Assembly (NCBI GenBank): GCA_019314425.1
Contig: JAFCZI010000026.1
Coordinates: 1-13,348, forward strand
Reading direction: 5' to 3'
DNA from: Deltaproteobacteria bacterium
GTDB taxonomy: Bacteria > Desulfobacterota > DSM-4660 > Desulfatiglandales > Desulfatiglandaceae
Length of the DNA stretch: 13,348 nt
Part shown: piece by piece, positions 788-12,714 of the stretch
Numbering within the stretch: position 1 is the first letter of the stretch
Layout: every line of letters begins with the position of its first letter
Notes under the pieces: generated by a model
What the model was told of the DNA's origin: nothing
Seen by the model: only the letters and a program-made list of their open reading frames with translations
Database searches by the model: none
Program-made: the position numbers and the translations under genes

Positions 788-3379
788 TCACAACACCGCC
801 AGCAAACGGTGTTGCGTTTCCTCGATCACATCCGGTTCGTACAATTTCTGCCCAAGCGAATCCCGCACATAGAAAACGCCGGTCAATTCTTCCCCGTCAC
901 TGCTGACTTTTGCCGTTCGAATGTCCAGGCCCATAGCAAAGATCACGCATGCCAAATCATACAGCAGACCAACCCTGGCGGTCGAACGAATTTCGATGAG
1001 GGTAAAAAAGTCCGATTCTTCATTGTTGATAATAACTTTTTCCCTGACCGGTCTCCCGTAGGTCTCCGGCATCTGGGTGTCCCTTTTCTCCTGAATCAAA
1101 TGATCCAGTAAAAGACGATCACCCAGGGCTTCGTTCAGGTCGTTTTGCGTTTTGGCCCATTTTTCCGTTTCATGGTAAACGTCCGGCGGATTGGTCACCT
1201 CATAGGTATCAAAAGCCAGGCCGTTTTTTAAAGCGAAGATGCTCGCGGACAACACCGCCATATTGTTCAGGGTGAAGACGCCCGCCATCTTGCTGAACAA
1301 CCCCGGTTTATCGTGAGTGACCTGAATGACTCGGGTGACGGAGGCGTCTTTTCGTTTTTCCAATTTCCATGCATGCTGTTTGTCGCCCAGATTCAACGCC
1401 AGGGAAAAATGGACCGTCATGTCTGCAAGCGAGGTGTTCAGGATATACCGGGAAGACACCTGGTAAATCAGTTGATGCACTTTTTCTTTCTCAAAATCGA
1501 AAGACAGGATTTCCCGAATGCGTTCCCGTTTGATCTCGATCTTCTGGGTGGCGTCCGGAGATGCCAGTGTGCCCCCTTCCAATATGTGTTGAACCTTGTG
1601 GAACAGCTCCGCCAGGAGCATGATTTTCCAGTCGCTTCGGGCCATGGGGCCGGTGGCAAAACTGTCCGCGATGGTCAGCAGAAAAAGCATTTTCAATAGC
1701 TGCCGATCCTGAATGGACTGGGCCACCTGAACACAGGTCTTCTCGTCCCGAAGATCCCTGCGCTGAGCAATGTGGGGCAGCAGGAGGTGATGCTTAACCA
1801 GAAATGAGATGGCCTCAACGGAGGCTTTCTCAAACCCCAGTCGCCCCAGAATCACGGGGACCAATCGGAAACCCCGTTCGCAATGTTCTTCCCCGTATCC
1901 TTTTCCGATATCGTGCAGTAGTGCCGCCAGAAAAAGCCGGGGAGGATTTTCGATCTCCTCGAAAACAGCTCTGAAAACAGGCCACCTTTCATCATAGATT
2001 CCCTTTGAAATTTCGTTGATCACGTCGACGGTTTTCAAGGAATGCAAGTCCACGGTCATCACATGGTAAAACCCGAACTGGGGCAGGTTCCTGATTTTCC
2101 TGAATTCGGGGATAAACAGACTGATGAGCCCAATCTCAAGGGCCAACCGAATGATTTCAGGGTTTTGAGGCTTCAAAATCAGCTCCAGGAACAAGGCTCT
2201 TCCCTCGGCCGATGGGATAAGGGCTTTCCGTTTCCGGCTGATAATTTCTTTGGCTTCCCAGATAAACCCGGAGCCCAGAAAAAGGCCTCTTTTGTTGGCT
2301 TCCTTAAACCCCCGCAGGAGCACCAGGGGATCTTTTTCCGAAAGCACCCCTTCGCCCAGGACAATATTTCCTTTCCGGACCACAAATTCAGAAGGGAGAT
2401 CTTTTTGGACCGACTCTATGGGGGCCGGATCAATCATGTCCAGCATTTTCACCTGAAATCCTTCATGCCGGTACCGAATCCTGTTCAAATGAAGGTATAC
2501 GTCCCGCATGAGCTTTTCAGGGCCGGAGATACGGGGTTCGTCCTCATAGCCGAGAACTTTTGAGATCTGATCCTGGTAGGAAAGCCTGAGGCTATCCTCT
2601 TTTCGATGGAGCAACCAGTGAAGGTGGTTGCGAACCTTCAGGAGAAAACTTCGGCTGACCCCCAGCTTCCGTACCTCAAAATGGTCGAAAGCCGCAAACC
2701 GCTTTATCTGACTCAGGTGTTCGCAATCGAACCAGATCCGGGCCATCCAGGCCATGAGATGAATGTCTCGAAGCCCCCCCAGGCCCTCTTTCAGGTCCGG
2801 CTCCACGAAACAGCTTTCCCCCTTATTTCGGTTGGCGCGTTCTCGCCTTGAAATGAGAAATTTCCCCAGCAGAGAATCTTTCTCCCGGGCCATGCGGGAC
2901 CAGAAGGCCTCCTTATAGAGCCTGTAGAAGGACCGGGATCCCAGCAGAAAACGGCTGTCCACCAGAGATGTGAGCATCCTGAAATCCCCCATGGCCAGGC
3001 GGATACACTCCTGATAAGTCAGGATGGAATACCCCACATCCAGCTTGGCATCCCAAAGGGGGTAAAGGGCATGGCGGATGACCTCCTCCATTTGAGGGGG
3101 TAACTCACCCTGATGAATCACCACCAGGTCCACATCCGATCCCAGGCAAAGTTCCCGCCGCCCATAACCGCCCAGGGCCGCCACCGACATTGCGCCTTCC
3201 CCACCGGTCAGGTTTCCCCGGGGGAATCCAGCCATTACAAAAAGATCCCGAATAAACCGATCCATCACATCGGCATATCGATGGGAAAATCCAAGGCCGG
3301 ATTCAGACGGTAGCCCTTTCGCAGCCAGTGCATCTCTTTCTGAACAAAATGCCTTGACCCTTGTATGCGATCCGTTCAA
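788..3379 (-). CDS. glnD: GlnD, bifunctional PII uridylyltransferase / uridylyl-removing enzyme
   Basis: GlnD adds UMP to a tyrosine of PII when glutamine is low and removes it when glutamine is high. In an 863-residue reading the domain order is classic. A nucleotidyltransferase domain has the motif GGYGRRELCLGSDVD at about 70-84, with the metal-binding aspartates. A GlnD-type linker follows (EPDLKEGLGGLRDIH). An HD phosphohydrolase domain carries LHDIGKG at about 488-494 and a downstream HH pair at about 530. Two C-terminal ACT domains (about 683-760 and 792-863) sense glutamine. Length is close to the E. coli protein (about 890). The start is inferred: the longest frame opens with TTG at 3442 inside glnB, but TTG at 3377-3379 has AGGA 8 bases upstream, overlapping the glnB stop, and leaves a 10-base gap after glnB. 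An ATT or a later start cannot be excluded. It is the last gene of the operon, directly after its substrate gene. Confidence 0.93.
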   Translation of the reverse strand: MNGSHTRVKAFCSERDALAAKGLPSESGLGFSHRYADVMDRFIRDLFVMAGFPRGNLTGGEGAMSVAALGGYGRRELCLGSDVDLVVIHQGELPPQMEEVIRHALYPLWDAKLDVGYSILTYQECIRLAMGDFRMLTSLVDSRFLLGSRSFYRLYKEAFWSRMAREKDSLLGKFLISRRERANRNKGESCFVEPDLKEGLGGLRDIHLMAWMARIWFDCEHLSQIKRFAAFDHFEVRKLGVSRSFLLKVRNHLHWLLHRKEDSLRLSYQDQISKVLGYEDEPRISGPEKLMRDVYLHLNRIRYRHEGFQVKMLDMIDPAPIESVQKDLPSEFVVRKGNIVLGEGVLSEKDPLVLLRGFKEANKRGLFLGSGFIWEAKEIISRKRKALIPSAEGRALFLELILKPQNPEIIRLALEIGLISLFIPEFRKIRNLPQFGFYHVMTVDLHSLKTVDVINEISKGIYDERWPVFRAVFEEIENPPRLFLAALLHDIGKGYGEEHCERGFRLVPVILGRLGFEKASVEAISFLVKHHLLLPHIAQRRDLRDEKTCVQVAQSIQDRQLLKMLFLLTIADSFATGPMARSDWKIMLLAELFHKVQHILEGGTLASPDATQKIEIKRERIREILSFDFEKEKVHQLIYQVSSRYILNTSLADMTVHFSLALNLGDKQHAWKLEKRKDASVTRVIQVTHDKPGLFSKMAGVFTLNNMAVLSASIFALKNGLAFDTYEVTNPPDVYHETEKWAKTQNDLNEALGDRLLLDHLIQEKRDTQMPETYGRPVREKVIINNEESDFFTLIEIRSTARVGLLYDLACVIFAMGLDIRTAKVSSDGEELTGVFYVRDSLGQKLYEPDVIEETQHRLLAVL

Positions 3380-3387
3380 AATGGTTG

Positions 3388-11390: not shown

Positions 11391-12714
11391 AGGTGGGCAA
11401 ATACCGATCCAGCTCATACTGGCTCACGTGGGTTCGATAGACATCCCATTCAATCCGTTTGTTTTCAATGAATTTATTGAACACATGGTCGCCCAGAACT
11501 TCCCGGACCAATTCACTCTTTTCCGTCGTCAGAATGGCGGCGTACAAATTCCCCGGAAGATCGGTGATCCCATGGGCCTTTCTTTCGGCGGGGTTCATTT
11601 CAAAGATGTCTTCTTCCACGGGCGCCGGCAATTCATATTTGTTTTCAATTCCTTTCAGCCCCGCGCCCAGCATCACCGCAAAGGCAAGGTACGGGTTGCA
11701 AGCCGGATCAGGGGATCTGAATTCAATCCGGGTGGCATTCTCCTTGCCGGGTTTGTACATGGGCACACGAATCATAGCGGACCGATTTCGCCGGGCCCAG
11801 GATACGTAAACCGGTGCCTCATAACCGGGCACCAGGCGTTTATAGGAATTGACCCACTGGTTGCACACCGCCGTAATTTCGGGCGCATGACGCATCAACC
11901 CGGCAATATACTGCCTGGCAATGGTGGACAGGTTGAAATCATCGGATGCATCGTAAAACGCATTCTTGTCCTTTGTGAAAAGGGATTGATGGACATGCAT
12001 GCCGCTTCCGTTTTCCCCGAAGATGGGTTTGGGCATGAAGGTGGCGTAAACGCCGTTCTGGCGTGCGACCTCCTTGACCACCAGGCGGTAGGTCATCATG
12101 TTGTCCGCCATACACATGGCTTCCTTGTACCGAAGGTCAATCTCGTGCTGGCTGGGCGCCACTTCGTGATGGCTGTATTCCACCTGTATCCCCATGTCCT
12201 GAAGGGCAAAGATGGTATCCCGCCTCAGGGTGCTTCCCATATCCAACGGCCGGGAATCAAAGTATCCTCCCGTGTCCAGCACTTCCGTGCCTTTGTCGTC
12301 CTTGAAGTAAAAATACTCCGCTTCCGGACCCACATAGAAGGTGTACCCTTTTTCCGCAATTTTTTTGAGAAGTTTTTTGAGAACATATCTTGGATCTCCC
12401 TCATAGGGGGTTCCGTCCGGATGCATGATATCGCAAAACATGCGGGCCACGGGTCGGTCGCCGCTTCGCCAGGGGACCAGTTGAAAGGTGGTGGGATCCG
12501 GTTTTGCGATCATGTCACTTTCGTGAATTCGCGCAAAGCCCTCAATGGAAGAGCCATCAAATCCCATCCCTTCGGTCATCCCCTCTTCGAGCTCGGAAGG
12601 GGTAATGGCAAAGCTTTTCAAGACCCCCAGCACATCGGTAAACCAGAATTGAACAAAACTGATATCCATTTCCTTTACAATTTTTCTCACGTCATCAAAT
12701 GATTGACAGTTCAT
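11386..12714 (-). CDS. glnA: Glutamine synthetase, type I-alpha
   Basis: This 442-residue enzyme makes glutamine from glutamate, ammonia and ATP, and forms dodecamers. Motifs include GFDGSSIEGFARIHESDM (51-68), the metal-binding GPEAEYFYF (129-137), NGSGMHVHQSL (235-245), the flap PGYEAPVY with Glu299 (296-303), the ATP/phosphate arginines around RRNRSAMIRVP, and RIEFRSPDPACNPYLAF (329-345). The length and Arg62 (ARIHES), equivalent to the feedback residue Arg62 of Bacillus GlnA, put it in the GSI-alpha group. The tyrosine that GlnE adenylylates in GSI-beta enzymes is replaced (EEDIFEMNP, Phe371), and the GSI-beta insert is absent. Control by adenylylation is therefore not expected; feedback and transcription are more likely. 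The start ATG has GGAGG 6 bases upstream. First gene of the operon, downstream of a sigma-54-type promoter candidate. Confidence 0.97.
   Translation of the reverse strand: MNCQSFDDVRKIVKEMDISFVQFWFTDVLGVLKSFAITPSELEEGMTEGMGFDGSSIEGFARIHESDMIAKPDPTTFQLVPWRSGDRPVARMFCDIMHPDGTPYEGDPRYVLKKLLKKIAEKGYTFYVGPEAEYFYFKDDKGTEVLDTGGYFDSRPLDMGSTLRRDTIFALQDMGIQVEYSHHEVAPSQHEIDLRYKEAMCMADNMMTYRLVVKEVARQNGVYATFMPKPIFGENGSGMHVHQSLFTKDKNAFYDASDDFNLSTIARQYIAGLMRHAPEITAVCNQWVNSYKRLVPGYEAPVYVSWARRNRSAMIRVPMYKPGKENATRIEFRSPDPACNPYLAFAVMLGAGLKGIENKYELPAPVEEDIFEMNPAERKAHGITDLPGNLYAAILTTEKSELVREVLGDHVFNKFIENKRIEWDVYRTHVSQYELDRYLPTL

Follow-up and report, generated by a model that had tools for sequence, protein, structure and literature searches.

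A glutamate synthase operon without gltD, with a possible relay subunit and interchangeable electron inputs

Glutamate synthase is a main entry of nitrogen into biomass, and the electron donors described for it are NAD(P)H, which arrives through GltD, ferredoxin and, putatively in archaea, F420. The NADPH-dependent GltBD of Azospirillum has a catalytic FMN domain, cluster cysteines, a glutaminase and GXGXG domains, and the ferredoxin-dependent GltS of Synechocystis has the same fold and chemistry and no GltD subunit (PMC8097209; this and the other papers are cited from excerpts). The nearest published idea to ours comes from ANME archaea, in which the genes of putative F420-dependent glutamate synthases are clustered with another electron-input gene, FrhB10 (PMC9012536). 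On the side of one-carbon (C1) metabolism, an mvhD-metV-metF cassette belongs to the type IV methylenetetrahydrofolate reductase (MTHFR) HdrABC-MvhD-MetVF of Moorella and Sporomusa. Apart from FrhB10 itself, all these traits are shared by an operon in a 13,348-nucleotide stretch of a deltaproteobacterial genome of the Desulfatiglandaceae (contig JAFCZI010000026.1 of assembly GCA_019314425.1), called here the window. Its core, mvhD-(metV-metF)-gltX-gltB-gltAC (gltX being a name coined here), is no local oddity: it is a conserved block in many anaerobic bacteria. The presence in this block of an electron carrier and often of a C1 enzyme suggests that the synthase receives electrons by a route other than an NADPH-binding subunit. 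A full-text literature search found, in the portions of text it returned, no description of mvhD or metVF together with glutamate synthase.

Gene order in the window and in relatives

The minus strand of the window carries, from 788 to 12714, nine genes whose transcription order is glnA-mvhD-metV-metF-gltX-gltB-gltAC-glnB-glnD (open reading frames, NCBIfam, Pfam):

11386..12714, minus strand: glnA, type I glutamine synthetase (TIGR00653, 540 bits, over cut-off)
10865..11341, minus strand: mvhD-like carrier of the FlpD family, four cysteines conserved in glt-linked relatives (PF02662; matches solved MvhD chains; cysteine counts)
10200..10868, minus strand: metV, MTHFR partner subunit (PF12225, 122.7 bits)
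9271..10203, minus strand: metF, methylenetetrahydrofolate reductase flavoprotein of a glt-linked lineage (PF02219, 131 bits; MetF tree)
7865..9259, minus strand: gltX, paralogue of the GltS FMN domain without catalytic loop, proposed electron relay (longest open reading frame to 9343)
6373..7932, minus strand: gltB, catalytic FMN/Fe-S domain of glutamate synthase, start uncertain (PF01645, 306 bits; GltS chains of the PDB, E 4e-53; loop present)
3725..6376, minus strand: gltAC, glutaminase (GATase_6) and GXGXG domain of glutamate synthase (PF13522, PF01493)
3390..3728, minus strand: glnB, PII signal protein (PF00543, 115 bits)
788..3442, minus strand: glnD, PII uridylyltransferase (TIGR01693, 591 bits, over cut-off)

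The profile searches bear out the first-pass annotation of this DNA, made from its letters alone, in joining glutamine synthetase, the synthase genes, PII and GlnD to MetF, MetV and an MvhD-like carrier. The short overlaps and gaps that it described are real, with 4 bp of overlap at each of the mvhD-metV, metV-metF, gltB-gltAC and gltAC-glnB junctions and a gap of 11 bp between metF and gltX if gltX starts at 9259, where the alignment of most homologues begins; its range of 4 to 8 bases does not hold throughout, the longest frames giving overlaps of 68 bp (gltX-gltB) and 53 bp (glnB-glnD). Between glnA and mvhD there is a 44-bp gap. The synthase is split, as it had stated, and the split needs a correction: there are two tandem FMN-domain genes, the first of which, gltX, has no catalytic loop. 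Neither GltD nor any Hdr subunit was found by NCBIfam and Pfam among the nine operon proteins, the genome not having been searched for GltD as such. In the source assembly (2.8 Mb, 475 contigs, 80% completeness), which holds the acetyl-CoA synthase marker CdhC, gltB is the sole clear glutamate synthase domain (307 bits; the next, gltX aside, score 40 and 26 bits).

Among 198 genomes of the phylum, 61 matched GltX at E 1e-20 and 56, the source genome included, below 1e-100. The regions of the 55 other genomes and 80 loci from titled GTDB records gave 135 loci, reduced to 117 by dropping 18 with identical GltX; in 92 of these the contig extends 2.5 kb or more upstream. The GTDB loci (L093-L172) are the best 80 of at least 557 relatives, and counts over the 117 lean to near relatives. 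Their record titles include Nitrospirae, Spirochaetes, Latescibacterota, Abyssobacteria and Chloroflexi, titles which can be wrong for metagenome-assembled genomes. The closest locus of the genome scan is that of strain NaphS2 (GltX 76% identical, MetF 89%).

Comparison of the gene order across relatives, which the first-pass annotation had proposed as its check, finds it conserved: upstream of the synthase genes, tblastn detected mvhD in 88/92 loci and metV with metF in 60/92. The genes before gltX read mvhD-metV-metF in 57 of the 92 loci, mvhD alone in 17 and mvhD-metV in nine; rarer arrangements are mvhD-metV-metF-mvhD (two), mvhD-metV-mvhD-metF (one) and mvhD-metF (two, one a doubtful remnant), and four loci have none of these genes. 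The metF of L061 is a partial match of 36% that overlaps mvhD and is perhaps a remnant, and the metV of L170 was recovered by tblastn after an initial miss. In three of the four loci with none (L089-L091), the place before gltX is taken by a GlcD/F-like FAD/Fe-S protein, the family-library scan having covered L089; in the fourth, L086, gltX comes after UbiD/UbiA-type genes. An evener set of 55 loci, labelled with models that missed some mvhD genes later found by tblastn, gave mvhD-metV-metF in 26, mvhD alone in 15, metV-metF without a visible mvhD in three, GlcDF in three, metV alone in two, mvhD-metV in two, mvhD-metF in one and nothing in three.

The control consisted of 40 genomes chosen by hand among those lacking a close GltX (with a weak match in G045); 25 of them have a synthase, at 27 places. 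Within the flanks read, mostly 6 to 8 kb and shorter where a contig stops, as upstream in L226 (about 1.1 kb) and downstream in L236 (1.4 kb), tblastn, which a very distant MvhD could escape, found mvhD, metV or metF at 0/27 places, so the association is with the GltX-type synthase and not with glutamate synthase generally. A distant GltX is joined to GlcDF at three of these places. Many independent records repeat the core order and the control places do not have it, so it reflects more than chance, and an origin of the gene order by chance or assembly artefact was rejected.

Some loci vary further. Nine carry metV without metF between mvhD and gltX (L054, L062, L064, L067, L133, L134, L151, L160, L161), where MetV may act as an electron carrier in the absence of MetF; an apparent MvhD-MetV fusion in L054 and L062 was rejected, the extra N-terminus being an out-of-frame extension and mvhD a separate gene. 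Directly downstream of gltAC, the mvhD-only loci L126, L128 and L137 have metV or metV-metF, and L052 and L053 an hdrA-mvhD-metV set. In L116 a second mvhD-metF-gltX-gltB set (15088-19380) directly follows the first cluster.

GltX and its proposed input modules

GltX duplicates the synthase FMN domain; it has lost the catalytic loop and kept the FMN and Fe-S motifs. In the alignment the loop is gapped in the window GltX and in 117/117 GltX rows, and is present in the window GltB and in 95/95 GltB rows. GltX has the fold, the FMN GG motif and the cluster cysteines of a GltS-fold flavoprotein, with two N-terminal 4Fe-4S motifs and one C-terminal cluster motif predicted, and without its loop it does not qualify as a catalytic GltS domain. 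The products of gltB and gltAC together hold what defines a glutamate synthase, namely an FMN/Fe-S domain with loop, a glutaminase and GXGXG. That gltX might be one half of a split GltB was rejected, since a complete catalytic gltB comes next and GltX is loop-less. The family is large (7952 rows), and the only names readable among the 120 listed are "ferredoxin", "4Fe-4S binding domain protein", "glutamate synthase-related protein" and "hypothetical protein". We read GltX as a putative relay, bringing electrons into a glutamate synthase whose operon has no gltD.

The best evidence that GltX would relay electrons into GltB is the order dehydrogenase-GltX-GltB within one chain. GltX and GltB already form a single chain in 11/117 loci, with MetVF in L070, L080 and L081 and without it in L077 and L078. 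In distant genomes, L234:6969-14567 and L235:7095-14735 are uninterrupted reading frames (2533 and 2547 codons) which join GlcDF, GltX, GltB and GltAC, and L228:3001-8772 is a single frame of 1924 codons made of GlcDF, GltX and GltB, with gltAC separate. In all three the GltX part is loop-less and keeps the GG motif, and the GltB part keeps the loop and the cysteines. GlcD/F-type enzymes are known to oxidise their substrate. The gene glnA adjoins the fusion gene in L228 and L234.

The most constant neighbour of the synthase, MvhD, keeps its four cysteines in the window, in 72 or 73 of the 73 glt-linked copies with metF, in 34/34 clusters whose next genes include neither metV nor metF and in 8/8 with metV only (counts that include duplicate records). 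Two HdrA-linked MvhD proteins of the assembly, inspected by eye, have a Cys-x-x-Cys near the N-terminus where the window protein has one cysteine. The MvhD of Sporomusa ovata pulled down HdrA, HdrB and MetF (PMC9430772), which makes a MetF-MvhD contact plausible in the window system as well. With mvhD so regularly upstream, a shared iron-sulfur hub is the best-fitting of the reasons that the first-pass annotation had offered for the gene order.

The source assembly has five metV genes, each adjoining a metF, and two further MTHFR-like genes. Three of the four pairs outside the window read hdrA-mvhD-metV-metF (HdrA confirmed by NCBIfam), the fourth follows a NuoF-GltD-like fusion protein (L178:3356-6487, label 21 bits only), and gltX comes after the window pair only. 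Given these four other pairs, that of the window is probably not the general MTHFR of the cell. A MetF tree (quick method, many open forks) was built from 125 rows: 54 other MetF, a subset of all matches taken from 40 regions in 16 genomes, and 71 glt-linked rows out of 72 prepared, two L116 clusters sharing one name, with L068 and L074 (second mvhD before gltX) left out. The glt-linked label needs three changes on this tree, at least two of them forced by starred branches, against a shuffle mean of 40.7. One clade holds 61/71 glt-linked sequences (SH-aLRT 94, below the 95 mark), a second holds seven with one non-glt sister, and three lie in a third clade on long branches. On this tree, the glt-linked MetF is an old lineage that stands largely apart from the remaining MetF proteins of these genomes and was perhaps recruited more than once.

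Nitrogen control and flanking repeats

Two features precede glnA in the window:

12955..12971, minus strand: sigma-54 (-24/-12) consensus match YTGGCAYNNNNNTTGCW, 0 mismatches to YTGGCAY-N5-TTGCW
12765..12943, minus strand: dispersed repeat of 179 bp between the sigma-54 match and glnA, with imperfect inverted-repeat ends

Shuffling gives an expectation of 0.55 matches for this search with one mismatch allowed. A perfect TGGCAY-N5-TTGCW lies upstream of glnA in 5/31 other loci, where 0.01 are expected. In those five loci 54 to 74 bp separate the site from the predicted start of glnA, against 256 bp in the window; in NaphS2 a match with one mismatch stands at 119 bp. The repeat has at least 39 further long copies of 88-95% identity in the assembly (40 of 245 candidates scored), and given the long distance in the window and the position of the repeat, its insertion may have pushed the glnA promoter back. 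PII and GlnD fit nitrogen control, and glnB, glnD or amt lies near many clusters. The first-pass annotation was right in expecting a nitrogen-responsive promoter insofar as a perfect sigma-54 consensus stands 5' of glnA; as the main cause of the gene order such a promoter is not supported, since only 35/117 loci have glnA upstream in the same orientation (contiguous by a stricter rule in 22/92), the core persists without it, and a perfect match within 350 bp upstream of mvhD occurs in 1/94 cases, many mvhD being internal to longer runs.

Beyond the operon, positions 1-786 look like a mobile element: a 245-aa open reading frame (28-765) without Pfam or NCBIfam match is flanked by AAGGTGTCCCCGG repeats, a 16-mer that occurs ten times in the assembly at up to one mismatch, the window accounting for three, with none for the backward control.

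Electron route, alternatives and known systems

It seems reasonable to argue, on balance and with slightly more confidence than doubt, for a synthase without GltD in its operon that would combine a GltX relay with a swappable input module. Gene order, the loop loss of GltX, the natural fusions and the largely separate MetF lineage are read from the sequences themselves; the formation of a complex, the electron path and its direction are inferred. By standard GltS chemistry, as the conserved domains imply, GltAC would hydrolyse glutamine and pass ammonia to GltB, whose FMN would reduce 2-iminoglutarate to glutamate. GltX, which duplicates the FMN domain of GltB in a catalytically silenced form and has additional Fe-S motifs, would bring electrons into GltB and would itself be fed by an interchangeable module, either MvhD, often with MetVF, or GlcD/F. 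In the window the path may run from the MetF flavin through the Fe-S clusters of MetV and MvhD, the first two steps being reversible, to GltX and GltB; in loci without MetF or MetVF, MvhD would be fed by another partner, such as an Hdr-type complex. If true, this would be a widespread further design, a relay subunit with swappable inputs, and would explain glutamate formation in anaerobes without GltD in the operon.

For the full cluster it is tempting to go further, to a methyl-tetrahydrofolate (methyl-THF):glutamate synthase in which methyl-THF is oxidised by MetVF and its electrons pass through MvhD and GltX to glutamate in one complex, no NAD(P)H or free ferredoxin being needed; we hold this tentatively, as a possibility that we would not yet back. 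The couple of 2-oxoglutarate plus ammonia and glutamate lies at about -120 to -140 mV. As the methylene-/methyl-THF couple is lower (E0' -200 mV, PMC8760232), electrons would run downhill from methyl-THF to glutamate, which is the direction favoured here. One-carbon oxidation would then be joined to nitrogen assimilation in one electron-transfer complex, methyl-THF oxidation might gain a direct anabolic use, and the finding bears on the question of the partners of MetVF (PMC8760232).

Several observations weigh against these readings. Gene adjacency is no proof of a complex, and 32/92 loci are without metV, metF or both (17 with mvhD alone, nine with mvhD-metV, two with mvhD-metF, four with none), so that the donor need not be methyl-THF. 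The presence of metF in the cluster shows no link to CdhC: it is seen in 23/30 genomes with CdhC and 19/25 without, a comparison of 55 genomes that leaves out the source genome, counts loci cut by a contig end as without metF, and takes as "no strong CdhC" an author-chosen set of ten genomes without match plus G083, G041 and G030 with weak ones. MetVF-type enzymes are usually discussed in the reducing direction (PMC9430772, PMC8760232). In the giant fusions the GltX part aligns just one of the three cluster cysteines, and neither of two characteristic GltX motifs was found in the L234 chain. Conventional GltD-type synthases stand beside the GltX cluster in L087 (1296-7302, GltD) and L136 (14691-19371, GltD-like); a similar second synthase set beside the L172 cluster was not checked for GltD. 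Hdr genes adjoin 12/117 clusters by our own models, L136 removed. The hdrA profile also matches GltD-like proteins; NCBIfam upholds the label for L179, L180, L181 and L060 and rejects it for L136 (GltD-like), the 521-aa "hdrA" of L087 is GltD, and the other hdr labels were not cross-checked. Part of the HdrA next to the cluster in L125 (17568-19371) is GltD-like and offers a possible entry for NAD(P)H.

This last protein lowers the standing of the methyl-THF-driven reading and raises that of a different use of the same hub, in which a single donor, either reduced ferredoxin or an Hdr complex that NAD(P)H perhaps feeds, would supply MvhD with electrons, and MvhD would pass them to GltX-GltB as well as to MetVF, the latter a parallel consumer that makes methyl-THF. 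Such a shared supply is conceivable and we doubt it: the adjoining Hdr genes, the nine loci with metV and no metF, the clusters with metVF in genomes without a CdhC match (G038, G074) and the use of reduced ferredoxin by MetVF in vitro (PMC9430772) speak for it, whereas the clustered MetF belongs to a largely separate lineage and to one of five metV-metF pairs, which would make a general supply role redundant, and the GlcDF-GltX-GltB fusions put a substrate-oxidising type of enzyme (its direction being general knowledge) into the same slot. Co-transcription of C1 and nitrogen genes merely to match methyl-group to glutamate supply, with no electron link, agrees with the sigma-54 matches at glnA and the nearby glnB, glnD or amt; it is improbable, because the core stays together without glnA, the most constant neighbour is mvhD and not metVF, and the control places have none of mvhD, metV and metF. 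Least probable is a flavin-based bifurcation or confurcation, in which the GltX flavin would couple an exergonic branch to glutamate with an endergonic one, as proposed for HdrA in HdrABC-MvhD-MetVF. Bifurcating complexes typically have MvhD and Hdr partners, according to the excerpts available, GltX adjoins mvhD-metVF where other copies have hdrA, and it combines several predicted Fe-S motifs with FMN; its fold, however, is the GltS-type FMN fold.

Returning to the GltX relay with its swappable input, the operon departs from each of the described systems in its own way. GltBD of Azospirillum differs in that the domains are split here, no GltD stands among the operon genes, and a non-catalytic GltX is added with MvhD/MetVF or GlcDF as neighbours. 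The Synechocystis GltS is one chain fed by free ferredoxin, whereas here GltX and MvhD would intervene. The ANME clusters have FrhB as their input and not MvhD/MetVF, and the excerpts describing them make no mention of a GltX (PMC9012536). With respect to the type IV MTHFR, the operon of the window is without hdrA, hdrB and hdrC, and gltX follows metF instead.

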